DNA of 64,000 nucleotides, taken from Pseudomonadota bacterium (GTDB lineage Bacteria; Desulfobacterota; Binatia; Binatales; Binataceae). Under the pieces are notes generated by a model. That model did not search any database and was not told where the DNA came from. It saw only the letters and a list, made by a program, of their open reading frames with translations. The position numbers and the translations under genes are program-made. Location: NCBI GenBank assembly GCA_021323945.1, contig JAJPKA010000018.1:598853-662852 (forward strand), written 5' to 3'. Shown piece by piece: positions 12,810 through 36,314 of the stretch (position 1 is the first letter of the stretch; the number at the start of each line of letters is the position of its first letter).

Positions 12810-12871
12810 CCGGCACGGCCATGGGCCATTGATGAGCGCCGCGCAATCTGCGCGGTTATGAGATCTACTTG

Positions 12872-13447
12872 ATGAAGTTGCTGGGAATTGTCGGCAGTGT
12901 CACACCGCCGGGCCGCTTGCTCAGAGCAACCAGTTGGTTGCTCGACAACACGCGGGCTACCAAACAGGGACTCGAGACTGAACTGATCAACCTTGCCGAT
13001 AAGCGCATCGCCTTCGCCGACGGGCGCCCACCGCACGAATATGGTGACGATACCGCAGAGGTCATTCAGCATGTAAGTGCTGCCGGCGCGTTGCTCATCG
13101 CGAGCCCGGTATATCGAGGCTCGATCACGGGGGCGCTCAAGAACCTACTGGATCATCTCCCAGTGGAATCGTTGGCGGCGAAACCGGTGGGAATAATCGC
13201 CATGGGCGCCACAAGCCATCATTTCCTCGGGGTCGATTGGCATCTACGCGACATTCTCGCCTGGTTCGGCGCGCTAGTCGTGCCCACCAGTGTGTATCTC
13301 ACTTCAGGCGATTTCGTCGGAGGCGAACCAAGCGAGGTCGCCCGACGAGACCTCATAGAGCTGGCCGAAGCAGTCCTTCGGTTGTGTCAAATCGCGCCTC
13401 CTGCCGGACGCTTTCTCGGCCCGCAACCCTTGGCCAGTCGGCGTTAA
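12872..13447 (+). CDS. NAD(P)H-dependent FMN reductase, flavodoxin fold
   Basis: A 191-residue flavodoxin-like reductase. KLLGIVGSVTPPGRLLRA at the N-terminus is the phosphate-binding loop of NADPH-dependent FMN reductases (GSxRxxS type), and ASPVYRGSITGALKNLLDHL (about residues 80-99) is the second FMN-contacting segment. Such enzymes supply reduced flavin to two-component monooxygenases or azo/chromate reduction. A TTG precedes the ATG at 12872. The gene ends the purD-to-here run on the plus strand. Confidence 0.88.
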   Translation: MKLLGIVGSVTPPGRLLRATSWLLDNTRATKQGLETELINLADKRIAFADGRPPHEYGDDTAEVIQHVSAAGALLIASPVYRGSITGALKNLLDHLPVESLAAKPVGIIAMGATSHHFLGVDWHLRDILAWFGALVVPTSVYLTSGDFVGGEPSEVARRDLIELAEAVLRLCQIAPPAGRFLGPQPLASRR

Positions 13448-14763: not shown

Positions 14764-15378
14764 ATGGCAGAGCAGGGTTCACAATTTGGTCCCGGCAAAA
14801 TGAGTCTGCGGCTGGAGGAGAACGAGTGCGTCACTCTATCCCCGGAGTCTCCGCGCTTCCGGGAGTCCTACCAGCAAGTACGACCGCGTACGATTGAAGA
14901 AGTTCGAAATATTCTCGGGCTCACAGGCGACGCCGCTAAAGCCTTGCAGGAGAAGGGCTGTTGCCGGCCGTCCGCGGTTTCTTCGGCCTTAATCTCCGCC
15001 GACGATTTGACTGCACAGGACGATCCGACACGCATCCGCGCGCGGTCACTCGCCTATGCAGCCTCACGTGAATACGTCAGGGCTCCGAACCCGACGTACC
15101 TTTCACAATGGCAAGCTGTACTGAATCGTTTTCTCGAGATAAGCAACTCCGTCATAAATGTCGTGGTATTGCTCGACATCGATGTCGCTAACGGTGCTAC
15201 TCTGACCATCTCGCCCAATACGCATGCGATCTACGCCAACAATGTTCGCATCCACGGCAACGGCAGGATCGTCTGCCAGCGAGACATTACCTTCAAGATC
15301 AACTCGCTGGAAGGGATTTCGGCTCGGCCAGTCGCTGTGCCGCTCAGCTCGGCAGCGGCAAGCTTGATCGGCAGGTAA
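14764..15378 (+). CDS. unknown protein with beta-rich C-terminal domain, first gene of collagen-like/prenyltransferase locus
   Basis: I cannot assign a family. The ATG has an excellent AGGAGG site five bases upstream. The 204 residues split in two: a polar, helical N-terminal part (1-115, including a CC pair at 66-67) and a beta-rich part (about 125-190). The latter alternates hydrophobic strands in the pattern INVVVLLDIDVANGATLTI, then AIYANNVRIHGNGRIV, then QRDITFKI. That layout resembles rungs of right-handed beta-helix or surface-protein domains. No signal peptide or membrane segment is visible. It is followed 66 bases later by the collagen-like gene on the same strand, and the two probably share a transcript. 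Confidence 0.75.
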   Translation: MAEQGSQFGPGKMSLRLEENECVTLSPESPRFRESYQQVRPRTIEEVRNILGLTGDAAKALQEKGCCRPSAVSSALISADDLTAQDDPTRIRARSLAYAASREYVRAPNPTYLSQWQAVLNRFLEISNSVINVVVLLDIDVANGATLTISPNTHAIYANNVRIHGNGRIVCQRDITFKINSLEGISARPVAVPLSSAAASLIGR

Positions 15379-15444: not shown

Positions 15445-16095
15445 ATGCCGGATATAATCGCTAAAGGCGTTAACGGAGCCAATGGAAACAATGGTACGCC
15501 GGGCCAGGACGGACAGCCGGGCCAGCTCGGCGCTCACGGAGTCGATCATTGGAACGGCGATGATCCACCCGGTGATGGTCAGCGCGGCGGCGACGGTATG
15601 CCTGGCTCGCCAGGAACCGACGGCCAGAACGGGAGCAGCGGTAGCAACGTTACAATTCAGGTCACTGACTTTGTTGTGGGAGTCAATATCGACACCAGCG
15701 GAGGTCTCGGTGGCACCGGCGGTGCTGGGGGCAATGGCGGTGCGGGCGGACCCGGCGGCGGCGGTGGATTCCCTGCGGACAGCGGCGACCCGAGGGGCAA
15801 CGGTGGGCCTGGAGGAAACGGCGGTGGTGGCGGTAACGGCGGCAATGGAGGACGCGGCGGCGATGGAGGCAATATTACGGTCGTCGCCAAAACCATAACC
15901 ACCGGTACAGTGCATGCCAATGCAGAGGGTGGCGCCGGCGGCCTGGGTGGCGCCGCCGGTTTCGGCGGCGGATTCGGCCCCGGGGGCGAAGGCAAGAACG
16001 TTGGGCCGAATGGCGCTCCTGGTCCTAACGGTCGCACTGGCGCCAACGGCGCCCGTGGCCTCGACGGGACAGTCGATATAATCCAACAGTCTTAG
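15445..16095 (+). CDS. collagen-like glycine-rich repeat protein
   Basis: A 216-residue protein dominated by Gly. The N-terminal part (about 8-65) and the C-terminal part (about 180-210) contain Gly-X-Y runs such as GTPGQDGQPGQLG and GAPGPNGRTGANGARG. The middle is GG-X repeats (GGTGGAGGNGGAGGPGG) broken by two beta-strand-like segments: NVTIQVTDFVVGVNI near 69-83 and NITVVAKTITTGTVH near 142-156. No signal peptide, Cys or membrane helix is seen. The ATG has GGGAGG upstream, so the frame is deliberately translated, not a chance repeat. It lies between an unknown protein and a prenyltransferase-cyclase fusion. It could be a structural or surface protein or a substrate of its neighbour; neither is shown. 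Confidence 0.85.
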   Translation: MPDIIAKGVNGANGNNGTPGQDGQPGQLGAHGVDHWNGDDPPGDGQRGGDGMPGSPGTDGQNGSSGSNVTIQVTDFVVGVNIDTSGGLGGTGGAGGNGGAGGPGGGGGFPADSGDPRGNGGPGGNGGGGGNGGNGGRGGDGGNITVVAKTITTGTVHANAEGGAGGLGGAAGFGGGFGPGGEGKNVGPNGAPGPNGRTGANGARGLDGTVDIIQQS

Positions 16096-16162
16096 TTGAA
16101 ATCACCGAGCTGAAGCGTGAATCCATTTTCCCCGAATAGTTCGATCTAGCGGAGTTTATAAT

Positions 16163-18163
16163 TTGCTAATCGCCGATTATATTCGCAGCCAATTGGTGGC
16201 GCTAATCGATTGGGCCGGCATGAAGCCAAATTCCGCGGCGTCGCTGACCCAGTCGTTCCTCCTGCTAACTCGGGAGTCGCTCGACCAGCCGGTTCAACCT
16301 TGCTACCCGGGGCTGTCGTATATAAACGCCAACGGGCTGCCATTCCAGTGGGTTTTGCGCTTCGGCTCGGACTTGAATGGGCTGGGATTTCTCTGCGAAG
16401 TTGGGACGCCTGGCGAACTGCCTACCCAGCGCTTTACAAAATCGCTCCACAGGCTCGACCAGGTATGTGAGGCTATTGGGTCAAAACGACCGCTATGGCT
16501 TCGGGATGTGGCAGCGCGTCTCGTACCGCGAGATCACTGGCCTTTAAAATGGCGAAGCGCGATGTGGATCGGGATCGGGGCGTCAGCCAACGCGTTGCTG
16601 GTCAAGCCTTATTTTAACCTCAACCGCGATTCGGCTCGCGAGCGCTGGCTCCGCGTCGGCTGGGTGTTGCAGGATTTGGGGCGCTCGCGGTCGCTCGAGT
16701 ACTTGTGCGCGCTTTCAACTCAAGTCTCCGCTGGCTCCTGGCCAGTTGGAATCGCAATCGACGTCAGACCCGATGGTACTCCGGGACGCGTCAAGGTCTA
16801 CTTTCGCTCAGAAGCGGTTTATCCGCTTTGGCTGCAGCATTGGTATTCGGCTACCGGCTACGACTCTGACTCAAAAATAATGCGATGTTGCCTCGATTCC
16901 TTGCCGCTGACCGGCAATCGGCCGTATCCGGCTGGCGCATTTATCGTCAGCATCGAGTTCCATCCCTCCGACCACCTAAGTATCAAAACTGACTTGGCGG
17001 TCACCAAATGGGTGAAAGGTGATCAATCGATCGTCCCCGGAGCTCGACGACTCATTGCCGCGGTCGGTGGCGAAAGCGATTGTCTGGAACACGCACTCGC
17101 AGCAGTTGGGGCCTGGCCCGTTTCAACACCGGAGACCTCGAGCTTACGGTTTATTGGGCTGGGTTCCGAGCCAGACAAATCGTGTCACGTGAACGTTTAC
17201 GTCGAACCGCCACTGCTGACGCGCAAGCCCCGCAACATAGTAGCCGGAGCGGTTCCCTCGATTTCTGCCGCAATTACGCGCGGACTTTACTTTTTGAGCT
17301 CGCAGCAGCGCGACGCCCATTGGACGGACTTCAAGCTGCCAACAGGTGAATCGAACGCGTGGGTAACCGCCTTTATTTTGACACGTTTAGCGGAACTTCC
17401 ACATGAGTCGATTTCGGCCACGATCGGTAAACAGATCGAACAGGCGCTCGACTGGCTCCAGGCCAGCCGCAGCCCTAGCGGCGGATGGGGATACAACGAA
17501 ACAGTCGATAATGATGCGGATTCAACCTCCTGGGCCATTCTAGCATTGCGCCGCTTCAATCGGAGCGTTCCGGCAGAGGCCTTGAATTTTCTGTACCGAT
17601 GTCGCCGAACGGATGGAACAGTTGCGACTTTTGCTCCTGAAAGCGGCCTAGGACCGGGATGGACACAGGGAGTTCCTGATGTCACGGCAGTTGGCGTCAA
17701 AGCGCTCGAACAGCGACCTGATGCTTCCACCTCTTTGTTCACCCGCTGGCTGCAGCCGGACGGCACACTACCCGCCTATTGGTGGTCTACGCCGCTCTAC
17801 ACAGCTGCCGAAGTGCTCGACTGGGCTGGAAGCGAGACGACGTCACCGTTAGTTCGCCGGCTTGCCGAAGGTTTAAGCCGATATGTGGCATCCACCCTGT
17901 TTGAAGAGGCTTTACTACTGAGATGTCTTGTCGTGCTGCAGATGAAGCAGGCCTCCACCACGGTCGCAACGCGTCTGTGTAGCGCACAGCGCAGTGATGG
18001 TGCGTGGCCCTCAGCTGCGCTACTCCGACTTACTGTGCCCGAAGTCATCGAACCATGGCGGGCGATTAATGCGGGACGGCTGTATCCCGACCATCAAAGC
18101 CTTTTCACAACGGCGACGATCTTGTCGGCACTTGGACGTTACCAATCGAGCTGGCAGGAATAA
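16163..18163 (+). CDS. predicted ABBA-type prenyltransferase fused to terpene-cyclase-like alpha/alpha toroid
   Basis: A 666-residue, apparently two-domain protein. The N-terminal half shows four beta-hairpin segments of the kind found in ABBA/DMATS aromatic prenyltransferases: IGIGASANALLVKPYF (136-151), IAIDVRPDGTPGRVKVYF (197-214), FIVSIEFHPSDHLSIK (260-275) and FIGLGSEPDKSCHVNVYV (330-347). Lys148, Lys211/Tyr213, Lys275 and Tyr346 sit where diphosphate-binding residues are expected. From about residue 365 the chain becomes helical repeats like the squalene-hopene/prenyltransferase toroid: WTDFKLPTGES (387-397), SPSGGWGYNETVDNDADST (437-455, a QW-like turn plus a DADS motif), then DGT and DGAW turns. 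The TTG start has GGAG eight bases upstream. Domain calls rest on my motif reading, not a search. Confidence 0.7.
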   Translation: MLIADYIRSQLVALIDWAGMKPNSAASLTQSFLLLTRESLDQPVQPCYPGLSYINANGLPFQWVLRFGSDLNGLGFLCEVGTPGELPTQRFTKSLHRLDQVCEAIGSKRPLWLRDVAARLVPRDHWPLKWRSAMWIGIGASANALLVKPYFNLNRDSARERWLRVGWVLQDLGRSRSLEYLCALSTQVSAGSWPVGIAIDVRPDGTPGRVKVYFRSEAVYPLWLQHWYSATGYDSDSKIMRCCLDSLPLTGNRPYPAGAFIVSIEFHPSDHLSIKTDLAVTKWVKGDQSIVPGARRLIAAVGGESDCLEHALAAVGAWPVSTPETSSLRFIGLGSEPDKSCHVNVYVEPPLLTRKPRNIVAGAVPSISAAITRGLYFLSSQQRDAHWTDFKLPTGESNAWVTAFILTRLAELPHESISATIGKQIEQALDWLQASRSPSGGWGYNETVDNDADSTSWAILALRRFNRSVPAEALNFLYRCRRTDGTVATFAPESGLGPGWTQGVPDVTAVGVKALEQRPDASTSLFTRWLQPDGTLPAYWWSTPLYTAAEVLDWAGSETTSPLVRRLAEGLSRYVASTLFEEALLLRCLVVLQMKQASTTVATRLCSAQRSDGAWPSAALLRLTVPEVIEPWRAINAGRLYPDHQSLFTTATILSALGRYQSSWQE

Positions 18164-18758
18164 GCATGGGCTGAGGTAGCCGGAGTTAATCTCTCATTGA
18201 GTGAGCGGTTGCCGCCCAGGCGAGACTGGATCGATTCCTGCCAGCTAAGTTCATCTGAGTAGCGCTCCTCTGTCTATCCTGCAAAGTATAATTCACGCAG
18301 CAGCGGCCGACGCGAGGATTGTAGTGTCACCAGCTCGTTCCTCCGCGGAGAAAGCAGATTCAAGAAACTGCCTTGATAGTAGATGTCGACCGCTTCCGTA
18401 GAAGAAGCGTCGCGGTCGAGGTGAATATCGCCGCACGATCAGCAAATTAGAACACGAGTCATCCCGCTCACAGCTGACCGCGCGCACTGGCTCACTGTCA
18501 GACTGCGCGACTCAGCTCGATCCCTGCAAGCGAAAGCTCGAAAGGGGTCGATAAGGTCGAACGGCCGAGAAAAGTGCCCCCCGGCAAAATTTTGACCGTA
18601 TACTGAAAGTGCACTGCGCTATCATCAAAATCGAAGTGTCATTCCCACTCAGCCAGCAGTGAATTTTTGAAACAAACGCTCGCTTTGCAAAATATCGGGC
18701 AGATGTAGAATATTAGGTTTGCTGTCCGCGTCAGGCTTAGTTCCATTTGGAGGGACCT
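18164..18758. other. intergenic region, no gene seen
   Basis: About 600 bases between two plus-strand genes. All frames are short. The last 100 bases are AT-rich (TTTGCAAAATATCG and TAGAATATTAGG near 18685-18720) and probably hold the promoter of the flavin monooxygenase gene, but no clear pair of boxes can be fixed. Confidence 0.4.
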
Positions 18759-19883
18759 ATGAAATTTGGCTTGTTGTATGAAATGGAAACACCGCGCCCG
18801 TGGCATGCGCTGAGCGAATATAATACCTATTGGCAGGCGCTGGCACAGATCGAGCTCGCCGATCGCATTGGAATCGACTACGTCTGGGAGGTCGAGCATC
18901 ATTTTCTCGAGGAATACTCTCATAGTCCCGCGCCTGAGGTATTCTACGGCGCGGTAACCCAACGAACGCGGAATATCCGTATAGCACACGGTGTGCGTTT
19001 GCTACCTTTCAATTTCAACCACCCGATCAAAGTTGCTGAACAGGCAGCGGTGCTCGACATCATGAGTAACGGCCGGGTCGATATCGGTACAGGCCGATCG
19101 ACCACCGCCCAGGAGCTGGATGGCTTCGGCATCGACTACGATCGGACTCGAGAGGAAGTGCGCGAATCTCTCGAAATCATCGTTAAAGCGTGGACCGACG
19201 ATATCTTGGAGTATGACGGTAAACTCATGAAGATTCCGCCCCGCCGCGTGGTGCCAAAACCCATTCAGAAGCCGCATCCCCCGATGTGGATGGCCTGTGT
19301 GGCGCCAGACAGCTATGAACTTGCTGCTGACCGCGGGCTCGGCGCGTTGAGTTTCAGCCTTAATTTTGAGCAGGTGCAGAAACAGCTGGAAACCTACCAT
19401 AAGGTGTTCGCTCGGCGAAGCGACCAGATTCCCAAGGTCGCCAACGAAGCCTACGCCGGCCTTGTTATTTGCCACGTCGCGGAAAACAAGGATGACGAGG
19501 CCATTGGCCTGGAGGGAGCACGCTGGTTCATGCACAACGTGGCGAAGCTGTTCGAACCGCTTATGGTTAAGAACAAGCTGTATTCTTATGAGTACCTGCG
19601 CAATCTGATGTCGTTGGATCTCGATCCCAAGGATGTGCCTGACGCGCAACTCAAGCAGCATCACATGGTCGTGGTGGGCAATCCCGATGAGGTCTGTCGG
19701 AAACTGGAGAATTTCGAACGCGCCGGGGTGGATCAGGTCATCATGTTCAAACAGGCTGGCCGCATTCCCCACCAAAATATTATGAAATCCCTTAAACTCA
19801 TCGCGCGCCATGTTTTGCCCCATTTCAACCCGCACAAACGCATCGCCGAGCCGGAGACCGAATTGGCGGCGGCCGGCCGCTAG
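18759..19883 (+). CDS. LLM class flavin-dependent oxidoreductase
   Basis: Luciferase-like monooxygenase of 374 residues that would use reduced flavin from a partner reductase to oxidise an organic substrate. The TIM-barrel start MKFGLLYEMETP and VWEVEHHFLEEYSHSPAPEVF (about 47-67) are typical. VRLLPFNFNHPIKVAEQAAVLDIMSNGRVDIGTGRS (about 80-115) is the most conserved part of the family. GNPDEVCRKLENFERAGVDQVI near the C-terminus is the usual final barrel strand and helix. The ATG at 18759 follows TGGAGGG by four bases; an in-frame TTG four codons earlier is inside that site. The gene is monocistronic and ends before a strong bidirectional hairpin. Confidence 0.93.
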   Translation: MKFGLLYEMETPRPWHALSEYNTYWQALAQIELADRIGIDYVWEVEHHFLEEYSHSPAPEVFYGAVTQRTRNIRIAHGVRLLPFNFNHPIKVAEQAAVLDIMSNGRVDIGTGRSTTAQELDGFGIDYDRTREEVRESLEIIVKAWTDDILEYDGKLMKIPPRRVVPKPIQKPHPPMWMACVAPDSYELAADRGLGALSFSLNFEQVQKQLETYHKVFARRSDQIPKVANEAYAGLVICHVAENKDDEAIGLEGARWFMHNVAKLFEPLMVKNKLYSYEYLRNLMSLDLDPKDVPDAQLKQHHMVVVGNPDEVCRKLENFERAGVDQVIMFKQAGRIPHQNIMKSLKLIARHVLPHFNPHKRIAEPETELAAAGR

Positions 19884-20083: not shown

Positions 20084-22096
20084 CTATAACAGGTTAAAGT
20101 TGTATTGGAGCTGAGCAATGAGATAGCTCTGCCCCTTGAACAAGCCGACTCCTGCTTCCTTGTCACCGCCCAGAATCTCGATCGCCTGCAACTTTAGGAA
20201 GTACTTCTTGGTCCAGGGCGGATTCAATGTCAGCGACGGGAACAATGCGAAGGTATCTCCCTTGGGATTCCAGATCATGGTCCAGGTCGGTGCAAAATCC
20301 GACCACCACCACGAGGTGCCAACGTTAAACAGCACACTTACGTCATTCTTGAGATTCTGCTCACTCAGGTCGTTACCGACATACGAGAACTTCGCATTGT
20401 CCAGGATAGTGGTTTGAATCTCTTCCAGGTTTACGGTCAGGTTGCCCGTGGTCGTCAGCCAAGGAGCGTACGCCTGGTCGATATCCAAGGCTAGCATGTA
20501 TTTTACGACATCCGACCACCGCTGTCCGTTCATATCCTGGAATCGGTTGCTCTCGAACGAGACGTGGTTCTGATAGAGCATCTCACCACGGAACACGGCG
20601 GGAAAATACTCCGCGATTGAAGCAGGCATCGGCAGCGGCCTGTCCATCGTTACGCCGAACTCCTGGATTGGGTAATAGCTATAGTTCCAAAGGTTAGTGT
20701 AGGGAGTCCACTTCAGGCTCCAGGGAGCCCCACCGCTCACGTTGTCGTTGTAATAGAGCAGTGTCCATTCGGTTGCTCCAAAGAGGGTGTGGAGACGTAC
20801 CCCTTCGTTCCAGTTTTCGGGCTGCATTCCTGGCACCCGCCAGAAGCCCGCATCGACCAGCAGTCCGTCACCAATTGGGCCGTAGTTGCCCTGTCTCCTG
20901 CTTAATCCCAGGTTACAGACGGGATGGAAATTCTTCGGATAGGGATTAAAGCCGGGGCGCACCAAACCAGGGAGACAAACGAAGAACTCGCGCGCCGCTG
21001 GGGGATCGACCAGATTAGCTCCAACGCAAGGTCCGGGGAAGTTCACACACGGTCCAGCAAGCTGCTGCGACGAGGTCGCATATGGGCCATGCGGCGCCAA
21101 TGGAGCGTTTGCACCAAAGATTGCATCCGTCGAGTACTGAACGTCGAATCGAGCGCTTGGACCGTGACTCGCAGCCGGATAACACGGGTTCACGCGGCCG
21201 GCAGTTAGCTCGCTGTTGAACTTATTGTATGGATCGTGAGTCTGCTCCGGCCACCACCGCGGCTGAAAACCGGGCTCGACCACAACCTCGATGAAATTCG
21301 ACGTCAGAGGTCCAATTTCAGGTAGATTGAGAATAGGGTGGATCATCCACTGCGGGTCGCGTGACTGCTCGAGGTTGGCAAAACCGAAAGCCCAACAGGT
21401 ATCAGTGGGATTAACCACGTCGCCCACGCGGAAAGCCAGTGATTGTCCCCAAACAACTATCTGATTACCAATGAAAGTGGTAAGCGGGCCGGTTTTGTTT
21501 TCCCACCACGCGTCGCGCACCTGATAGTTGTTGTAAAAGTCATTGGTCACGTGACCGAAACTGGAGTGAAACGGCGTTGCCTGTGAATAGAAAGGATTGT
21601 TCGCGCTATTGAACGAGTATGGCGGTTCATACACGAACCACTCGCGCATGAAGAACGTATTGTTTTCGTTGAGCCGATAATTCTCGTCGATCTGCAAGAG
21701 GCTCCGAGCCACGGCCAAGTTGTTGCGGCTTCGCGTATACGCTTTCAGAGTTGTCGGATTTTGCCACATACCGAAGGTCTCGTTGGCGTAACCCGAAATG
21801 TGCAGACCACTGAGCCAGCCTGCCTCCGCCCCAGCTGGCTCGCTGGAGGTGCCGGCCCCGACCGCCGGCGCACCCGCGGCTCCCATCGAGGCTGAACCAC
21901 CCGCGCCCCCGGCTTGGGGCAAAACATTTGATACTGAATTAGTGATGCTCAACCCGTTGCTCGGCTGAGCGAAGATATCGCCAGCTCTGCTGGTGGCGAA
22001 CGAGAAGGCAATGATCAAGACGGTTGCCGCGATCGCATTGAATGCTCTCAAGCCTTGGCGGAGTACGCCAGAACACAGCCAGTCTCCGATCCCCAT
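20084..22096 (-). CDS. DUF1302-type outer-membrane beta-barrel protein
   Basis: A 670-residue protein resembling DUF1302 proteins of Gram-negative bacteria, which are often encoded near substrate-oxidising or RND-type genes and are thought to act in outer-membrane transport. It starts with a long signal peptide (hydrophobic core IAATVLIIAFSFATS, about 22-36). A Gly/Ala-rich linker follows (about 62-95), then alternating amphipathic strands typical of a barrel (for example FIGNQIVVWGQSLAFRVGDVVNP), ending in QLQYNFNLL. Most DUF1302 proteins end in an aromatic residue, whereas this ends Phe-Asn-Leu-Leu. The usual DUF1329 partner is not in this window. The ATG has an AAGGAGG six bases upstream. 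Confidence 0.8.
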   Translation of the reverse strand: MGIGDWLCSGVLRQGLRAFNAIAATVLIIAFSFATSRAGDIFAQPSNGLSITNSVSNVLPQAGGAGGSASMGAAGAPAVGAGTSSEPAGAEAGWLSGLHISGYANETFGMWQNPTTLKAYTRSRNNLAVARSLLQIDENYRLNENNTFFMREWFVYEPPYSFNSANNPFYSQATPFHSSFGHVTNDFYNNYQVRDAWWENKTGPLTTFIGNQIVVWGQSLAFRVGDVVNPTDTCWAFGFANLEQSRDPQWMIHPILNLPEIGPLTSNFIEVVVEPGFQPRWWPEQTHDPYNKFNSELTAGRVNPCYPAASHGPSARFDVQYSTDAIFGANAPLAPHGPYATSSQQLAGPCVNFPGPCVGANLVDPPAAREFFVCLPGLVRPGFNPYPKNFHPVCNLGLSRRQGNYGPIGDGLLVDAGFWRVPGMQPENWNEGVRLHTLFGATEWTLLYYNDNVSGGAPWSLKWTPYTNLWNYSYYPIQEFGVTMDRPLPMPASIAEYFPAVFRGEMLYQNHVSFESNRFQDMNGQRWSDVVKYMLALDIDQAYAPWLTTTGNLTVNLEEIQTTILDNAKFSYVGNDLSEQNLKNDVSVLFNVGTSWWWSDFAPTWTMIWNPKGDTFALFPSLTLNPPWTKKYFLKLQAIEILGGDKEAGVGLFKGQSYLIAQLQYNFNLL

Positions 22097-22392: not shown

Positions 22393-23181
22393 CTATTGTT
22401 CCTTGATGCCTCCGAAAATAGCGAGGTCTAGATAGCGCCAATAGCAATCCACGGAGCGAAACCCCGCTTGGGATAACCAATGGAGCTGGTCGGTGAGGGA
22501 CGCGATTCGGCTCTCATGCTCGCCTCCAGCTAATCGCCGCTGTTCACGTATCTCCGCCTCGATTTCCTGCCGTGAACGGCTCATGCCTCGTTTGGATCGC
22601 TCCTGCTCCTGTATGGCTAGGAGGTTCAGCCTTTCGAATTGCTCCTTTAGTGCGGGTGGAGTACTAACGACATCGTTGTTGAGAAAGATCCCTCCTCGAG
22701 CGAGCAAGTCAAAGATCTCCCGGTAGAGTTCCTGTTTGCGCCGGTCGGTCAAATGATGAATCGCAATTGCCGAAACGGCGACATTGAACGGCCCGTTGGG
22801 CGTGCTTTCAACGTCTATTGGTCGCGCTCTATCTTGTAATGCACCAATCCACGAACTGTCCGACAGATCAGCTTTGCGGATTCGTGCGCGGGAGCCATAT
22901 TTCAACAACCGCTCAGTAGCATGGGCGATCATTGGCTCCGAGCCGTCGACACAGGTCACGGTTGCCGACGGAAAGTGCTTTAGGATCCTTTCCGTTAGCG
23001 AGCCGAAGCCCGCCCCCAGGTCGAGGACCGACAAAGACGCGTTGGGCGAGTAGGGAATAAGCTCTACCAGCAGCTTCAGCTGTTCCTCACGGCGAGGAAT
23101 AATGATCTCGGAATTTTCGAGGAAATAAGCGACTTTCCTTGCGTCGCCCCAACCACCGAGTGTATCGTGCCCAGCGACCAT
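22393..23181 (-). CDS. class I SAM-dependent methyltransferase
   Basis: A 262-residue Rossmann-fold methyltransferase. Motif I is VLDLGAGFGSLTERIL, the acidic post-I residue is in VTCVDGSEPMI, and NVAVSAIAIHHLTD is the motif IV/V region. These are typical of small-molecule methyltransferases (UbiE/Methyltransf_25 kind), and the acceptor is unknown. The open frame extends nine codons upstream, but the ATG at 23181 has GGAGG six bases before it and is preferred. The gene stands alone on the minus strand. Confidence 0.88.
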   Translation of the reverse strand: MVAGHDTLGGWGDARKVAYFLENSEIIIPRREEQLKLLVELIPYSPNASLSVLDLGAGFGSLTERILKHFPSATVTCVDGSEPMIAHATERLLKYGSRARIRKADLSDSSWIGALQDRARPIDVESTPNGPFNVAVSAIAIHHLTDRRKQELYREIFDLLARGGIFLNNDVVSTPPALKEQFERLNLLAIQEQERSKRGMSRSRQEIEAEIREQRRLAGGEHESRIASLTDQLHWLSQAGFRSVDCYWRYLDLAIFGGIKEQ

Positions 23182-23532
23182 TTCGCTCCTCCAGCCGAGA
23201 GTTGGCAAAAACCAAGCAAAATCCGGATCAGAGGTTTTTGCAAACGGTTCCGTTGGAGATGAAAAAAGCTACGCGGAATCCTGGAACTGCCCGCCAGATT
23301 TCGAACTCAAAGACGAAGCTACGCCGAAACGTCAACGCCTATTTGCTTGTCGTCATGGTCAAAAGGATGTCTACTAATTCTGACAGCTAGTGTCGCGTCG
23401 CACCCATAGTAATCGTCGAGGCCCGGCCTTCGACGAACTATTGCTAGCCGGCAATAGTTATGCGAAGTAAGCAAGTAAAGATATGCAAAGTTCAATGACA
23501 GGAAAGCCCTGACAACGAAAGGAGGCAGTTCC
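23182..23532. other. divergent intergenic region
   Basis: Some 350 bases between the methyltransferase (minus) and the VOC gene (plus). No gene is seen. The part near 23450-23500 is AT-rich (AAGTAAGCAAGTAAAGATATG) and is the likely promoter zone. AAAGGAGG at 23518-23525 is the ribosome site of the VOC gene. Confidence 0.4.
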
Positions 23533-29385: not shown

Positions 29386-32300
29386 CTAAAGTCTAGGCCT
29401 AAGTGTCTCGTCTGGCCAGCATCGATCAACGAAGGTACAGCCCAAACTCTCGCAGACACACCGACTCGACGGTTTTTTTGGAAAGTCGCCTGCCGACTGA
29501 GCTCGGATTAGTTCGTGCCCCAGTGATAAGATGCGTCGCTGGATTTCAGGAAGCGGGTCTAAGGCCAGCGCAACCGTCTTTCCTGGCTCCTTCAAGAACA
29601 CTATTTCAGCCTCGATGGTTGCTTGGGGATATGCGGCCGCGACCGCCAGCGTATAAGCTTCCATCGGCAGCCTGTAGGGCTTTACGTCCGAAACAGCGGC
29701 ATACTTGTAATCACGAACGATGATTCGATTCGCTTGCTGAATTAGCGCATCGATCTGACCGCGTATGAACAAGCCATCGCCAAGGTGATGAAAAAATGGC
29801 ACTTCGCGGGCGCTAGGAGCTGCGAGTTTCCCGACACATTTCGCCAAGTCTGCGGCTATCGACCTGCGCTCGGTCGAATCGAGTCCGGCCGCGAGGCCGA
29901 AATGTTCGGTTAGTTCGAAAATCTCCTTTTCGTTCTTTGCCGAAAAATGCAACCGCTCCAGCACTGCGTGAGCCACGATCCCCATCACCAAGCTGTTCGA
30001 TTTTCCCCCACCATTCGTCCGGATCTCGGGGAGTTTCAGGTTATGGCGCAGATGAAACTGGCGGGGACATCGCTCGAAATCAGCAAGTGCCGTCGGACTA
30101 ATCACCAGTTCCTGGGCAATAGATGGCTTAAAGGCTAACCGACCTGCCGCAAGCGTCTCGATTGACGAAGTGTCGTCCGATGAAGCCTTTGGAACGCGGG
30201 ATTCGCTCGAGTATTTATGCGGCTGAGGTCTCATCAGCAGGACCCTTGAATTGCCACATTCGACGAGCATCTGATCCCTGTCAGAATTGATGAATCTTGC
30301 ATAGGCCTCATTGCCAATGAAGCTGCGGAGCTGTTCGGCCCAGCCGTGAACCATCGCGCCTTCGCTAATTATGAGGCGATCGCGCGCTCTTGTTAGTGCC
30401 ACATACAACAGCCGCCGCGATTCCGCATCCTGCTCGCTCCGACTCCGCTCACGAAAATCATCCAGGAGTTGGTTAGGGATTTCGTCCATTCCGCTACCGG
30501 TCGTGTCACACATCAACAACCCATTTTGAGGATCGACCACCGTGCGGCGTGAATCGGTCTCCCACTTACGACCGCAATCGGCCAGGATAACCACCGGGAA
30601 TTCGAGACCTTTCGCCTGATGGACGGTCATTAACCGAACCACATTTTCGCCTTCGCCGAGGATCTGGGCGGCGGGTTCATAGGGTTGCTGCTCGGCCAGA
30701 CGACGCAGATAGACGACGCAGTCGTGGAATACGAAAACTCGGCGTGACTCAAACTCACGTGCCAGATCAACCAGTTTGCGCACATTGGCGACTCGCTGCG
30801 TGCCCTGAGGAAGCCCGAGCAAGACGGCTTCGTAAGAAGTGGCGACGAGCGCATGCTCGATTACCGCTGCGATCGCACCACGTTGGCGAAGCCCGCGCAG
30901 TTCATCCAAAATCCGCCATGCGCGCGAAGCATCCTCCCGTCCCCTGGATAACCACGAAAAAGCAGGCCCGGCCTTAAAGAAAGCGGTGGAGAAACTACTG
31001 GACGGTGGTTCCTGCCGACCATCATTAGCGCTTACGCCACAAAGGGCGATCTCAGTGAGACAGTCATCCGAAAGGCCAAATAATGGTGAGCGGAGGGCGG
31101 CCACCAGCGCCAGCGAGTCGGACGGATTGTCAACTGTGGTCAACAACTCGATTAGGTCAAGAATTTCTTGACGACCGAAAAATCCGCGTCCTTTTACCGT
31201 ATATGCCGGAATCCCAGCGTTGAGCAGCGCGGTTTCATAAATCGCGACGTCAGTAAACGCCCGCAACAGTATCACCACGTCGCCGTATCGCACCGGCCGA
31301 ACGGCTCCGCTGACCGGGTCCGTCACAAGCTCTTTATCCACCAGTTCGACGATTCGACTAGCGAGGGCGCGCGCTTCCAGTACCCGCTTGTTGCTCGCAT
31401 TCCCTGCAATTAAAGCGCTGCTTGAAGAGCTCGGTTGCTGCGGCAAAGTCAGGTTCGCAATACCTGACTCGCCGACCGCGATCACGACTTCAACCGGGGG
31501 ATTCAAAGTCGAGGTGCGAAGTGGAGCCAGTTCGTGTTCCGGACCCCATTGGATCCAATAGGCAGGCGGAGGCGACTGCGACGCTCGCATGAGTTTGGCG
31601 CCGACACCGTTGACGAATGCTATGATGTTGGGCGAAGAACGACGGTTCCCCTGCAACGGCAACTCGCGAATCTGTAAATCTTCGAGGCGTTTGATCCGCT
31701 CAAATCCGCCAACGTCAGCGCCCCGAAAGCGATAGATCGACTGCTTTTCGTCCCCGACCGCAAACAAGTGTGGCGACGGCACATCGCGTTCGGGTTCAAC
31801 CAGAAGTGTGACGATTTGCTGCTGAATTTGATCGGTATCCTGGAATTCATCGATCAAAAGCTCTCGCAGTTCAGTTTTATAGCGGTGTCGCCTGTCGGAT
31901 TTGCTCGCCAGCAATTGCCGGGTGCGGAACAGAAGATCGTTAAAGGTGACAAGGCGTTCTTTGATCTTGACTTCATCGATTCTGGCTGCGACCTCGCGGA
32001 TCAACGCTGCGACTTCCTGCGCTCTTCGAACGGAACGGCACGCGCCATAAAGTGAGACAAGCTCGCCTTCGAGCCCGTAAGCGGTCGAGCAACGCCTGAC
32101 AATCGCCTTGATCGACTTGACGCATTCGGCAAGCTGTCCCCGCGCCTCGGGCAGGCAATCACAAAACTCGCGTAACAGAGCGAATCTTTCAGGTTCGACC
32201 TTTGCGTCAAGCGCCGTAATGCCTTGACGAAATTCGTCCTTGCGCATCCGTAGCGCGGCCGTCTTTTGCGCCGCTCTTTCATTCGAACAACTGAATCTCA

Positions 32301-33003
32301 GCAACTGTTCAACGAGGTTGACGAGTTGATGAGCGAGCTGGCTTATTCGATCCGCACCTTTCGCTGTGCGAACAGCCGTCGCCGAAGTCGCCTCCAACAG
32401 CCACTGTGACGTCTGCCCGATTCGTGCCAGCTCGTCGAGAATTCGCATGACCGTCTCGACGGCACCTTCACGCATCATCCTGCCGTGGAAGCCACAAGCG
32501 CGAACCAGATAAGCGGCAGCGGGATCCGACCGGCGCACTTTGTCGATTAGGAATTCTCGGCAAACGCGTTCGAGAAAAGTCTGACTTTCGTATTCGTCCA
32601 GCACCTCGAAATCAGGGTCAAGAGCAGCAGCGATGGCATTTTCCCGCAAAATCCGCCCACAGAAGGCGTGGATAGTCGAGATGCGTGCCGCTGTCAGTTG
32701 TCGATGCGCGGTGAAGAGATGGGTCCGAAGGTCACCGCGGCGCTCCGATTGAAGACGTTCCTCAAGCACTGCCGCAATACGCTCGCGCATATCGTAGGCA
32801 GCTTTCTCAGTGAAGGTTATTGCGGCCACCTGGAGCGGTGATAGCGGTGGGTAGTCTTTAATGTCGCCGGCGACCAATGCGACGAATCGGCGCGCCAGCA
32901 CCTCGGTCTTGCCCGAACCTGCCCCCGCTCTAATCAAGACGTTGCCTGGCGTCAGGATCGCGGCTCGCTGTTCGTCACTGAGAATGACAGGGTTCAGGTT
33001 CAC
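29386..33003 (-). CDS. addA: AddA-type helicase-nuclease subunit
   Basis: UvrD-like superfamily 1 helicase fused to a RecB-type nuclease, acting with AddB to resect double-strand breaks for RecA. With the GTG at 33003 it has 1205 residues, normal for AddA. Seen in order: Q-motif-like LSDEQRAAIL, Walker A AGAGSGKTEVLARRF, TFTEKAAYDMRERI, DEFQDTDQIQ (Walker B), GDEKQSIYRFRGADVG, VHQAKGLEFPVVIL, and YVALTRARDRLII. The C-terminal nuclease follows, with GQIDALIQ and IIVRDYKYA. The GTG overlaps the addB stop by four bases (GTGA), so the start further upstream at 33051 is unlikely. Confidence 0.93.
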   Translation of the reverse strand: MNLNPVILSDEQRAAILTPGNVLIRAGAGSGKTEVLARRFVALVAGDIKDYPPLSPLQVAAITFTEKAAYDMRERIAAVLEERLQSERRGDLRTHLFTAHRQLTAARISTIHAFCGRILRENAIAAALDPDFEVLDEYESQTFLERVCREFLIDKVRRSDPAAAYLVRACGFHGRMMREGAVETVMRILDELARIGQTSQWLLEATSATAVRTAKGADRISQLAHQLVNLVEQLLRFSCSNERAAQKTAALRMRKDEFRQGITALDAKVEPERFALLREFCDCLPEARGQLAECVKSIKAIVRRCSTAYGLEGELVSLYGACRSVRRAQEVAALIREVAARIDEVKIKERLVTFNDLLFRTRQLLASKSDRRHRYKTELRELLIDEFQDTDQIQQQIVTLLVEPERDVPSPHLFAVGDEKQSIYRFRGADVGGFERIKRLEDLQIRELPLQGNRRSSPNIIAFVNGVGAKLMRASQSPPPAYWIQWGPEHELAPLRTSTLNPPVEVVIAVGESGIANLTLPQQPSSSSSALIAGNASNKRVLEARALASRIVELVDKELVTDPVSGAVRPVRYGDVVILLRAFTDVAIYETALLNAGIPAYTVKGRGFFGRQEILDLIELLTTVDNPSDSLALVAALRSPLFGLSDDCLTEIALCGVSANDGRQEPPSSSFSTAFFKAGPAFSWLSRGREDASRAWRILDELRGLRQRGAIAAVIEHALVATSYEAVLLGLPQGTQRVANVRKLVDLAREFESRRVFVFHDCVVYLRRLAEQQPYEPAAQILGEGENVVRLMTVHQAKGLEFPVVILADCGRKWETDSRRTVVDPQNGLLMCDTTGSGMDEIPNQLLDDFRERSRSEQDAESRRLLYVALTRARDRLIISEGAMVHGWAEQLRSFIGNEAYARFINSDRDQMLVECGNSRVLLMRPQPHKYSSESRVPKASSDDTSSIETLAAGRLAFKPSIAQELVISPTALADFERCPRQFHLRHNLKLPEIRTNGGGKSNSLVMGIVAHAVLERLHFSAKNEKEIFELTEHFGLAAGLDSTERRSIAADLAKCVGKLAAPSAREVPFFHHLGDGLFIRGQIDALIQQANRIIVRDYKYAAVSDVKPYRLPMEAYTLAVAAAYPQATIEAEIVFLKEPGKTVALALDPLPEIQRRILSLGHELIRAQSAGDFPKKPSSRCVCESLGCTFVDRCWPDETLRPRL

Positions 33004-36000
33004 CAATCGCCTTCTATTTTTCGATAACGGCAAACGCGCCGATAGGGGCAATAGTCACTACATTGGAGCGGATCGACGTCGAAGTGGCCGGCGAGTGCCT
33101 CATTAACCAGATCCGCGAGTCGATCCCGTACGGTTTTCCGACGGCTGGACTCAACTTGGGAGCCCAAAAGGTCCAACGGAATCTCCTGCTCGGCCTGTTT
33201 GGCCCGGTTTTTTAAGACTATGTAACTGAGCTTAATCGATGCTCGCGGTGATAATTCTGAGCGGAAATGTTCAGCGGCGGCGAGTGCATATACAGGCATT
33301 TGCAAATCCTCGGCCGCGAAATAAGCCGGTTTTAATCGCTCCTCGTACTGTTTGAGTCGGCGCGACGTCTTGTAGTCAATCAGCCTGAGACTGCTGATCT
33401 GTCCTCCCTGCTCACGATAAATCTCCAGGCGATCGATGCGGCCCGCTAGCACAATCTCGGCGGCAGCCCCAGCCAACCCGGGCCGGATCGGAAGTTTAAA
33501 GTTGAACTCCAGCTCATGGAACAACTCCGAAGCTGCCTGGCCGGTTTCCAAACGAACTGCCTCATGCTCGATTAACTCTTCGACCATCGCCTCGATTATC
33601 AGCCAATCATTTTGGAAGAAGGCGGGGTCGGGCGCGGCGTGGCTTTCTCGCTCATGAAATTCCTCAAGCACTTCGCGCGCACACACACGCAGCGAGGCGG
33701 GGTCCGAATCCTGTGCCCGAGTGAAGATCTCCCTGACGATTTCGTGAACGAGCGTCCCGGTCTCCGCTGCGGTCCGCTGATAGTCACCTTCGGCAGTTTC
33801 CCGCAGACGCAGCACCTGCCCGGCTAGGAACTTAAAACCGCAAGTGGCCAGGTCCGTCAGTTGGGCGGCGCTCCAGCTTCGCGGCTGGCCATTGGGCAGG
33901 CGGAGCAATGAATGTCGCAAAACTGAGCTTGCTTGCACGCGGCCGTCATACTTCGTGGCACGTGAAAACTTTTCCGTATCGCTCGAAAGATCGATCGCGA
34001 GCCACTCGGCGCCGGATGTTCCTTTCGCTTGACGGCGGCGTTGCTTGACGAGTTCTTCCCTGGTTGGCAATGCGAAATATTGTTCGCGGCGGCGCTCGGC
34101 TTCGGTTCGACGCACAATTGAGTCGACCTCAACGACGCCCGCTAAAGTCGACATTCCCTGCTCTGGCAGCATTGAATCGAGCGCGGCGCGGGCCAGAAAC
34201 TCCTGGCGCCCGAAGCAGTCACTCGCCCGGGGAATCAAACCATCACCCGAGATCTGTTCGGCGCTCGTGTCCAGGATACGGCTTACTTCCTCAACGAAAG
34301 GCGAGACCACAAGCGGATTACCGGAAATATCCGCCTTCGAGTAAGTCAAAACGACCGACTCCGTCGCCATCGACATCGCCAAAAAAAACAAGAATGGCTC
34401 TTCGAGGTTCCGGTCAGCGTGGGTGCGAAGAATTGGTCCCGGTTGATCGGGTGCGAAACAGCCCAGCCGCTGCCGAATAGCGGCGCGCAACGATGCATTC
34501 AATCTCCCAATCGCGTGGTCTGAGATTAACGAATTTTGAAGGTGATGGATCGGAAACAGTCCATCGTTGAGGCCAATGATGAAAACCTGTTCAAAATCGA
34601 GACCCCGCGCATCCGTCACCGTGATCGCGCGCACCCCGTGCAGATGGTTTGATGCCGCCTCGGCTGTGGTTCGTTCAAACGTCTGCTCGACCAAAGCGAC
34701 AAACTGCTCGAGGCTGAGCTCGCGTTGCGGGCAAATAATTTCGCCCTCGCGCGCCAGCGCTTCCAACGCCGAGCGCACAGGGCCTGCTGCCGCGGCAGCG
34801 GAATCCGTCACCGATTCCCGCAAGGGATCAAAGCCGAGACGCGCCAAAACATCTGCGGTGCGCGCGACATGCCCCGCAATGGTCGCCGGATGTTCCAGCG
34901 TGACCAGCAAATCCAGGAATTGGCTCCACGGCCCAGCTGCGCGCTCGAGTGCTGCAAGCTGCCGTCGCAGTTCAACCGCGCGAGCATTATGAGGGTTTTC
35001 CGTCAGAGCTCGCCTTAGCTCCGCTCTTCGCTGCTTGATACAGCTGCCCAACGGCCGAGTCCTGCGATCGATATAGCCTACCAGGCCAGGCAGCTCGTCA
35101 TACCCGGAAGCGGCGAAACGCAGAAACGGCGCGCGGCACAGACTCAAGAGGCGGTCACGATGATAGTCCTCAAGGGGGATCCGGAGCACATCTTTAACCA
35201 CTCGCACCGCAGCATACGACAACAAAGGCCGTCGCTCATGGAAACACAGTGGGATCCGATAGGCACGGAACGCGGCTTCGAGATAATCTCTGTAGGGTGC
35301 CAAAGTGCGGGCGACAATCGCAATTCGCTCCAGCGGGATGCGCTCCGCAGGCGGCAGCTCCAGCATGCGACGAATAGCTCGAGCGACTTCTTCCGCCTCC
35401 CGCCTGCGATCGGGTGCCGCGAGAATTCGGACGGTTCCATCGGGCGGCGGAACATTTGCGCTGGTCACCCCACCCTCTCCCTTACCTTTGCCCGGCTCCA
35501 TAGATTCAGACCCGCCCTGCTCGGGCGTAGCCTGGTCAGCTGAACCTGCAAACAGGTGTGTTAGCACGAAACCCAGGCGCCCCCTGCGGCCATTTCTGCG
35601 GACAAAGTTCGGAAGGACTTTGTCAGCGATTGATGCCTCCGCGACGAAACGGTTCCAGGTAAGCTCGGCGAATCTGCGAACCTCAAGATCGAAAGGTTCG
35701 GCTTGAATCGTCAAAGTTGCGTCACCGATCAGTCGGATCAGCGATGAGACGAGCATGAACTGCACGAGACTCGGGTCGTAGACCTCAGCCACCAGCAGGC
35801 GTTCGATTCCGTCCAGGAAGTGGGGGCGCTGGCCAGTTTGCTCGGCACGATGCAGCCATTGAAGCACTAACCGCTCCTGGCCATGCGCGTCCACCGCCCC
35901 GGCCGCCTGAAGCACGGCTTCATACTCCGCGAAAATTTCGGCGATAGCGCCAACCCGGCTGGAATCTTCGTCGAGCAACTGCGCACAGGCCGCTCGCAAG

Positions 36001-36314
36001 TCGGTCGCCTCTACAGCCGCGCTTTTGAACTCATGGATGATGCGTAACAGATGCTCGCGGACGCCCACACTGGCGGGAAAAGGCAGCTGGAGGCCCCGAG
36101 CGGTAACCTGATTTATCGCTTGTTCGAGGGCCAGTCGCTCACCAATGGGTCCGATAGTGAGGTATTTGGGGTTTGCTTCGCGGCATAAGGCATCAACCAA
36201 CTGGGGGAAAGTCGTGAGCCGATGACCTATCAGTACCGAGTGTGTTCGAGTGTAGTGCTTGAGAAGATCTTCGACTTTATCCGCGGTCGGATAGATCGCG
36301 AGCACCGAATTCAT
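33000..36314 (-). CDS. addB: AddB-type subunit, PD-(D/E)XK nuclease with Fe-S cysteines
   Basis: Partner of AddA in break resection, 1104 residues. The C-terminal nuclease has GRIDRLEIY and LRLIDYKTSRR, the PD-(D/E)XK core. One Cys in LTDLATCGFKF and three in QCSDYCPYRRVCRY match the 4Fe-4S staple that encloses the AddB nuclease. The N-terminal helicase-like half begins VLAIYPTADKVEDLL and has no GxGKT Walker A loop, so it is probably a non-ATPase scaffold as in RecC-like subunits. The gene is first in the addB-addA pair and is coupled to addA by the GTGA overlap. Confidence 0.9.
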   Translation of the reverse strand: MNSVLAIYPTADKVEDLLKHYTRTHSVLIGHRLTTFPQLVDALCREANPKYLTIGPIGERLALEQAINQVTARGLQLPFPASVGVREHLLRIIHEFKSAAVEATDLRAACAQLLDEDSSRVGAIAEIFAEYEAVLQAAGAVDAHGQERLVLQWLHRAEQTGQRPHFLDGIERLLVAEVYDPSLVQFMLVSSLIRLIGDATLTIQAEPFDLEVRRFAELTWNRFVAEASIADKVLPNFVRRNGRRGRLGFVLTHLFAGSADQATPEQGGSESMEPGKGKGEGGVTSANVPPPDGTVRILAAPDRRREAEEVARAIRRMLELPPAERIPLERIAIVARTLAPYRDYLEAAFRAYRIPLCFHERRPLLSYAAVRVVKDVLRIPLEDYHRDRLLSLCRAPFLRFAASGYDELPGLVGYIDRRTRPLGSCIKQRRAELRRALTENPHNARAVELRRQLAALERAAGPWSQFLDLLVTLEHPATIAGHVARTADVLARLGFDPLRESVTDSAAAAAGPVRSALEALAREGEIICPQRELSLEQFVALVEQTFERTTAEAASNHLHGVRAITVTDARGLDFEQVFIIGLNDGLFPIHHLQNSLISDHAIGRLNASLRAAIRQRLGCFAPDQPGPILRTHADRNLEEPFLFFLAMSMATESVVLTYSKADISGNPLVVSPFVEEVSRILDTSAEQISGDGLIPRASDCFGRQEFLARAALDSMLPEQGMSTLAGVVEVDSIVRRTEAERRREQYFALPTREELVKQRRRQAKGTSGAEWLAIDLSSDTEKFSRATKYDGRVQASSVLRHSLLRLPNGQPRSWSAAQLTDLATCGFKFLAGQVLRLRETAEGDYQRTAAETGTLVHEIVREIFTRAQDSDPASLRVCAREVLEEFHERESHAAPDPAFFQNDWLIIEAMVEELIEHEAVRLETGQAASELFHELEFNFKLPIRPGLAGAAAEIVLAGRIDRLEIYREQGGQISSLRLIDYKTSRRLKQYEERLKPAYFAAEDLQMPVYALAAAEHFRSELSPRASIKLSYIVLKNRAKQAEQEIPLDLLGSQVESSRRKTVRDRLADLVNEALAGHFDVDPLQCSDYCPYRRVCRYRKIEGDW

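Follow-up and report, generated by a model that had tools for sequence, protein, structure and literature searches.

A fused enzyme gene at the end of a three-gene row

Within the window, by which we mean the whole 64,000-nucleotide stretch of DNA analysed here, a gene for a 666-residue protein occupies positions 16163–18163 of the forward strand, exactly where the first-pass annotation had placed it. It is the third gene in a tight row, preceded by the genes for a protein of no known family (protein A) and for a Gly-rich, collagen-like protein, the three being 66 and 67 bases apart. The features of this row are given below.

14764..15378, forward strand: protein A (204 aa), of no known family; opens the cassette
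15445..16095, forward strand: collagen-like Gly-rich protein, 216 aa, conserved partner
16151..16154, forward strand: likely ribosome-binding site (GGAG), read from the sequence, before the TTG at 16163
16163..18163, forward strand: fusion enzyme of 666 aa with a TTG start, assigned as an ABBA/DMATS-type prenyltransferase plus a monodomain class II terpene cyclase
16163..17212, forward strand: predicted prenyltransferase domain, residues ~1–350 (with E79, K148, Y150, R209, K211, Y213 and Y346), from ortholog identity, the TIGR03429 match of the ortholog and a three-sequence profile
17213..17260, forward strand: probable interdomain linker, residues ~351–366, placed by the ends of the domain alignments
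17261..18142, forward strand: MstE-like class II cyclase domain, residues ~367–660, from PDB matches to 6ij1 (1.9e-21) and MstE (3.3e-16)
17513..17527, forward strand: codons of DADST (residues 451–455), the putative class II acid motif, aligned with DADTT of MstE

The chain had originally been read as an ABBA-type prenyltransferase joined to a terpene-cyclase-like domain, with the boundary near residue 365. Both parts of this reading were borne out, the cyclase by PDB matches that begin at residues 367 and 368, and the prenyltransferase by way of an ortholog and profiles. For the whole fusion, the best NCBIfam match was to SCO2321_fam, at 30.5 bits against a cut-off of 300.

Assignment of the cyclase domain

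When the whole protein was searched against the PDB with phmmer, residues 368–657 matched 6ij1, described as 'Prenylcyclase', and residues 367–658 matched MstE (6sbb), in each case over the whole domain of these monodomain cyclases. A profile (A6) of the cyclase domains of the window, Paracoccus and Deinococcus proteins (the latter two are described below) reached 8pak at 1.3e-31 and five MstE sequences at 2.4e-23 to 2.9e-21. The likeness to MstE (6sbb and others) and 6ij1 extends to motifs, namely DADST opposite DADTT, YWW, and a further stretch that reads FTTAT in MstE and HTTAT in 6ij1; D-x-D-S-T and YWW are invariant in all three of the cyclase domains that we aligned. Pfam cyclase and toroid models gave matches below cut-off only. 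Taken together, these similarities argue strongly for an MstE-like monodomain class II cyclase, and homology implies an alpha/alpha toroid, the single-sequence AlphaFold2 model of this domain (pLDDT 36) being too low in confidence to test the fold. The solved MstE and 6ij1 chains, at 346–367 residues, consist of the cyclase only, whereas the cyclase of the window follows a prenyltransferase domain.

Assignment of the prenyltransferase domain

Searched alone, the N-terminal domain gave no hit to any Pfam (E up to 10) or NCBIfam family, and in the PDB it found one unrelated chain (E 0.43) and no DMATS relative. In another genome of the phylum (G365), we identified a standalone ortholog of 358 aa that is 39 % identical to this domain, and because such a protein exists on its own the N-terminal part can be regarded as a real domain. 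The ortholog matches NCBIfam TIGR03429 (DMATS aromatic prenyltransferase) over residues 48–353 at 6.6e-6, although its score of 25.6 bits against a curated cut-off of 163.85 does not reach that of the family. PF11991 (Trp_DMAT) was not found in the window's own genome, a search that has no bearing here as the control was equally silent.

Two profiles were used, A4 from the window and G365 sequences, and A5 from these two plus the corresponding Paracoccus domain, which is 20 % identical to that of the window. No DMATS structure was found in the PDB with A4, with the G365 domain alone or with the Paracoccus domain alone; profile A5 matched 6zs0/6zrz (2e-6), 7w8u (2.6e-6) and PriB 5inj (2.5e-4). 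At E up to 10 it returned six distinct PDB sequences, including CymD 6os3 (0.65) and one unrelated regulator (0.26); PriB and CymD we take to be DMATS-type. The alignment to 7w8u is nearly full length, running as a single stretch over profile positions 6–355, and 6zs0, 6zrz and 5inj are aligned mainly in the first half.

In this alignment K148-x-Y150, R209-x-K211-x-Y213 and Y346 fall on the VKVY, RVKVY and VYV stretches of 7w8u, and E79 is aligned with the Glu of LVEPG. The K-x-Y, K-x-Y and Y positions of such enzymes are diphosphate-tunnel residues, which bind the diphosphate. Across the three prenyltransferase domains aligned, K148/Y150, K211/Y213 and Y346 are invariant; in Paracoccus E79 is replaced by Asp and R209 lies opposite a gap. 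The first-pass annotation had named K148, K211, Y213, K275 and Y346 as tunnel residues: four of these stand, by their invariance and their position on the K-x-Y or Y stretches of 7w8u, and K275, which is Cys in Paracoccus and Thr in the aligned 7w8u, has to be withdrawn.

The domain resembles bacterial DMATS-type prenyltransferases (6-DMATS 7w8u, 6zs0, PriB and, at E 0.65, CymD) in its profile matches and K-x-Y motifs, but differs from them in that the similarity is very low, below family cut-offs, and in that the solved chains (360–405 residues) have no fused cyclase. A single-sequence AlphaFold2 model of the domain showed strand hairpins alternating with helices at a pLDDT of 34, too low to test the fold. 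We regard the DMATS/ABBA-type assignment, which draws on the ortholog and the profiles, as indirect but consistent.

Conservation and distribution of the cassette

The G365 prenyltransferase gene is likewise the last of a three-gene cassette, in which protein A, the collagen-like protein and the enzyme follow in the same order. Protein A is 33 % identical to its counterpart (L002:34-732) in a MAFFT alignment and 28 % over 197 residues by BLASTP (E 2e-24), and the collagen-like proteins (G365, L002:797-1450) share 58 % identity. As the G365 enzyme has no cyclase domain, cyclisation is not required for persistence of the cassette. We compared all ORFs of at least 20 aa between the two loci, 388 from 11–24 kb of the window against 484 from 16 kb of G365, and 13 rows came out at E 0.01 or below; the top three, protein A, the collagen-like protein and the prenyltransferase, were the only convincing matches, the other ten being antisense to cassette genes or short. 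No short precursor ORF common to the two loci was found in this comparison. Two larger partner proteins stand beside the enzyme instead, and no peptide could be recognised as a precursor.

When 395 genomes of the phylum were searched with the fusion, three gave a match: the window's own, G365 with its standalone protein, and G093 with a weak cyclase-like match. The last of these (G093/L003), which covers residues 372–464 only at E 8.2e-7, was rejected as a fusion relative and represents a distant squalene-cyclase-like match. Protein A was found in two of the 395 genomes, the window's own (G000) and G365. The prenyltransferase profile matched one of 46 genomes in the order of G365 (G365 itself), one of 41 in the window's order (its own) and one of 394 in a draw from the phylum (G365), and the cyclase profile matched one of 395, again the window's own. 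The collagen-like profile matched the own genome among 297, with G365, which may lie outside these 297, not among the matches. These profile searches scored few candidates per genome (for example five of up to 63 for the cyclase profile), such that misses are possible. On these counts the cassette looks rare and patchy in the phylum.

Outside the phylum, sampling comprised a plasmid collection and one genome-contig scan, in which a 37-residue Macrococcus match (E 2e-5) was taken as noise; viral contigs gave 84 pattern matches with no relative among them. Titles and abstract openings among the literature matches listed contained no description of such a cassette, and the term 'collagen-like' was absent from the best 10 of 101.

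The same domain pair in the opposite order

A tblastn search of 72,556 plasmid records with the cyclase matched three records. The fusions found in Paracoccus and Deinococcus are as follows.

L009:7749-9845 and L011:478-5365: intact reverse-order fusion, plasmid NZ_CP102356.1 of Paracoccus sp. SMMA_5_TC
L005:8965-11130: broken reverse-order pair, annotated as two CDS, plasmid NZ_CP097152.1 of Deinococcus sp. QL22

The Paracoccus protein (P0009, 698 aa) is intact and identical in SMMA_5, and in it the prenyltransferase follows the cyclase. In Deinococcus sp. QL22 a 430-aa cyclase CDS runs into the start of the prenyltransferase and the next CDS (235 aa) holds the rest in the same frame, the prenyltransferase domain being interrupted by two in-frame stops; profile A5 finds the two pieces of this domain at E 1.1e-8 and 1.8e-6. 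Profile A4 did not find these reverse-order domains significantly (E 1.2 for Paracoccus and 0.13 for Deinococcus, against 0.07 for the best reversed decoy). An hhalign comparison of the window/G365 group with the reverse-order domains gave a score of 55.1, a probability of 92 % and an E-value of 6.3e-7, whereas the controls reached at best 24.7 among 100 shuffles of the columns, and 12.3 on reversal. Searches of the plasmid collection by tblastn with the two prenyltransferase domains and with G365 protein A matched none, the Deinococcus prenyltransferase piece matched itself only, and the G365 collagen-like protein matched none in a search limited by the low-complexity filter.

The pairing first seen in the window is therefore present in one chain in other organisms, intact in Paracoccus and broken in Deinococcus, with the order reversed. 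The prenyltransferase and cyclase domains are thus joined in both orders, and since this is so, the two steps are presumably coupled; the reverse-order fusions further suggest that they have been joined more than once.

The sequences also bear on whether one or both domains have decayed or become non-catalytic binding modules. The lack of conservation at K275, the loss of R209 and E79 in Paracoccus and the broken Deinococcus copy would all fit such decay; against this, the window gene has an open reading frame with both the core K-x-Y/K-x-Y/Y set and D-x-D-S-T intact, and we consider decay very improbable. The fusion is real and is probably an active prenyltransferase–cyclase.

Around the Paracoccus fusion runs a long row of genes, whose products are a PLD-like protein, a tyrosinase, an EAD1 protein, trypsin-like proteases and an ATP-binding protein, together with hypothetical proteins. 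The EAD1 and trypsin genes suggest that this row may resemble published conflict systems; the main text of PMC7159879 has no squalene, terpene, prenyl or tyrosinase terms, and PADLOC gave weak matches (1.8e-4 to 8.5e-3) for two of the neighbours.

Comparison with known fusion enzymes

The claim that a chain of this kind would be a new architecture fails, because a fusion of an ABBA prenyltransferase with an MstE-like cyclase, NctPC, is already in print (in the passage devoted to it in PMC13290415, a review of 2026). That passage, citing Hubrich et al. (2024), has NctPC attaching a C20 geranylgeranyl group to Trp and then cyclising it. The window protein shares with NctPC an ABBA-type P domain and an MstE-like C domain in one chain, a likeness by description in that passage, which does not state the domain order. 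NctPC belongs to ribosomal peptides, going by the title of the paper cited there, whereas no short precursor was found here and the genes conserved alongside the enzyme encode protein A and the collagen-like protein. A second parallel is offered by HAD-TCbeta drimenol synthases such as AsDMS. According to the relevant part of PMC12365925, these likewise combine two catalytic domains in one chain, one of them a class II TCbeta domain whose closest likeness is given as merosterolic acid synthase; the other is a HAD phosphatase, where the window protein has a prenyltransferase. The fusion type has therefore recently been described, and it is the conserved gene setting with a collagen-like protein that is new and unusual.

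Candidate acceptors and proposed function

The collagen-like protein contains 37 % Gly in the window and 35 % in G365, and each ortholog has six runs, separated by breaks, in which the Gly-x-x triplet is repeated four or more times. Its Pfam Collagen matches are below cut-off, and PHROGs gave two weak matches only, both to the G365 protein. Both orthologs have a single Trp, at position 36 (window codon 15550–15552), situated in the break after the first Gly-x-x run, where it is the sole identity between G32 and P42 of the pair. This conservation spans two sequences, and as 50 of 141 aligned columns are identical even when columns with Gly in both are excluded, the retained Trp36 is at most suggestive.

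Protein A too has a single conserved Trp (116/162), in a QW-x-A motif, and it accompanies the enzyme in both of the 395 genomes that have it. It might itself be the acceptor or a carrier, with the collagen-like protein as a structural partner. The Trp appears to lie in an ordinary amphipathic helix, which would provide a structural explanation for its conservation, and we regard such a role for protein A as quite unlikely.

The chemistry is likely to be prenylation of Trp (or another aromatic) followed by class II cyclisation. We favour, with about an even chance of being right, an NctPC-like bifunctional maturase whose target for terpenylation is a ribosomal product of its own operon, the best acceptor candidate being Trp36 of the collagen-like protein; we accordingly hypothesize that this protein is a substrate. 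The DMATS/ABBA domain would bind a prenyl diphosphate through K148/Y150, K211/Y213 and Y346, and this donor could come from polyprenyl synthases, for which the own genome has three matches above cut-off. The chain, probably C15–C20 by analogy with NctPC, would be passed to an aromatic residue, most likely Trp, of the ribosomal partner, whereupon an aspartate of DADST in the MstE-like domain would protonate the attached polyene to give a polycyclic terpenoid. The candidate product is a terpenoid-lipidated, possibly membrane-anchored collagen-like protein.

In its most specific form, this proposal would amount to a post-translational modification in which a Gly-x-x collagen-like protein, rather than a short peptide, bears a polycyclic terpenoid on one loop Trp, installed by a single fused enzyme of the operon, with the related cyclase-less operon leaving the chain linear; we think it unlikely that all of this holds. 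The locus extends prenyltransferase–cyclase fusions to a genetic setting with no recognised peptide precursor. The cassette is small and testable, having three genes and a single candidate Trp, and the window and G365 versions form a natural pair with and without the cyclase.

Neighbouring genes

Three genes around the cassette have functions that might be connected with small-molecule metabolism.

12869-13447: FMN reductase
18747-19883: luciferase-like monooxygenase
22393-23208: methyltransferase

All lie within 5 kb and could tailor a small molecule, and the nearest solved cyclases and DMATS enzymes act mostly on small aromatic compounds. Both points would suit a meroterpenoid synthase whose substrate, a soluble aromatic metabolite such as indole or hydroxybenzoate, is first prenylated and then cyclised; the two partner proteins would in that case be storage, scaffold or surface proteins. 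However, a Pfam scan of 29 window proteins (67 ORFs of at least 150 aa are listed for the window) matched no polyketide or peptide synthetase and so gave no sign of such a cluster around the gene, and none of the tailoring genes is common to G365 in the stretches compared. We hold a small-molecule product to be possible but doubtful.

A G365 methyltransferase gene (L006:11093-11782; Methyltransf_25, 2.7e-9) lies directly upstream of protein A. It was rejected as the equivalent of that at 22393-23208, as the two do not align convincingly (best E 1.1). PADLOC gave no match for the window proteins scanned, nor for G365 protein A. For a 670-aa ORF on the reverse strand (20084-22096), Pfam, PHROGs and PADLOC all came back empty, and NCBIfam gave a weak match only (E 0.39). 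Further along the same strand (29386-36314), two adjoining large proteins have UvrD-type helicase and PD-(D/E)XK nuclease matches, and are reminiscent of an AddAB-type repair pair.
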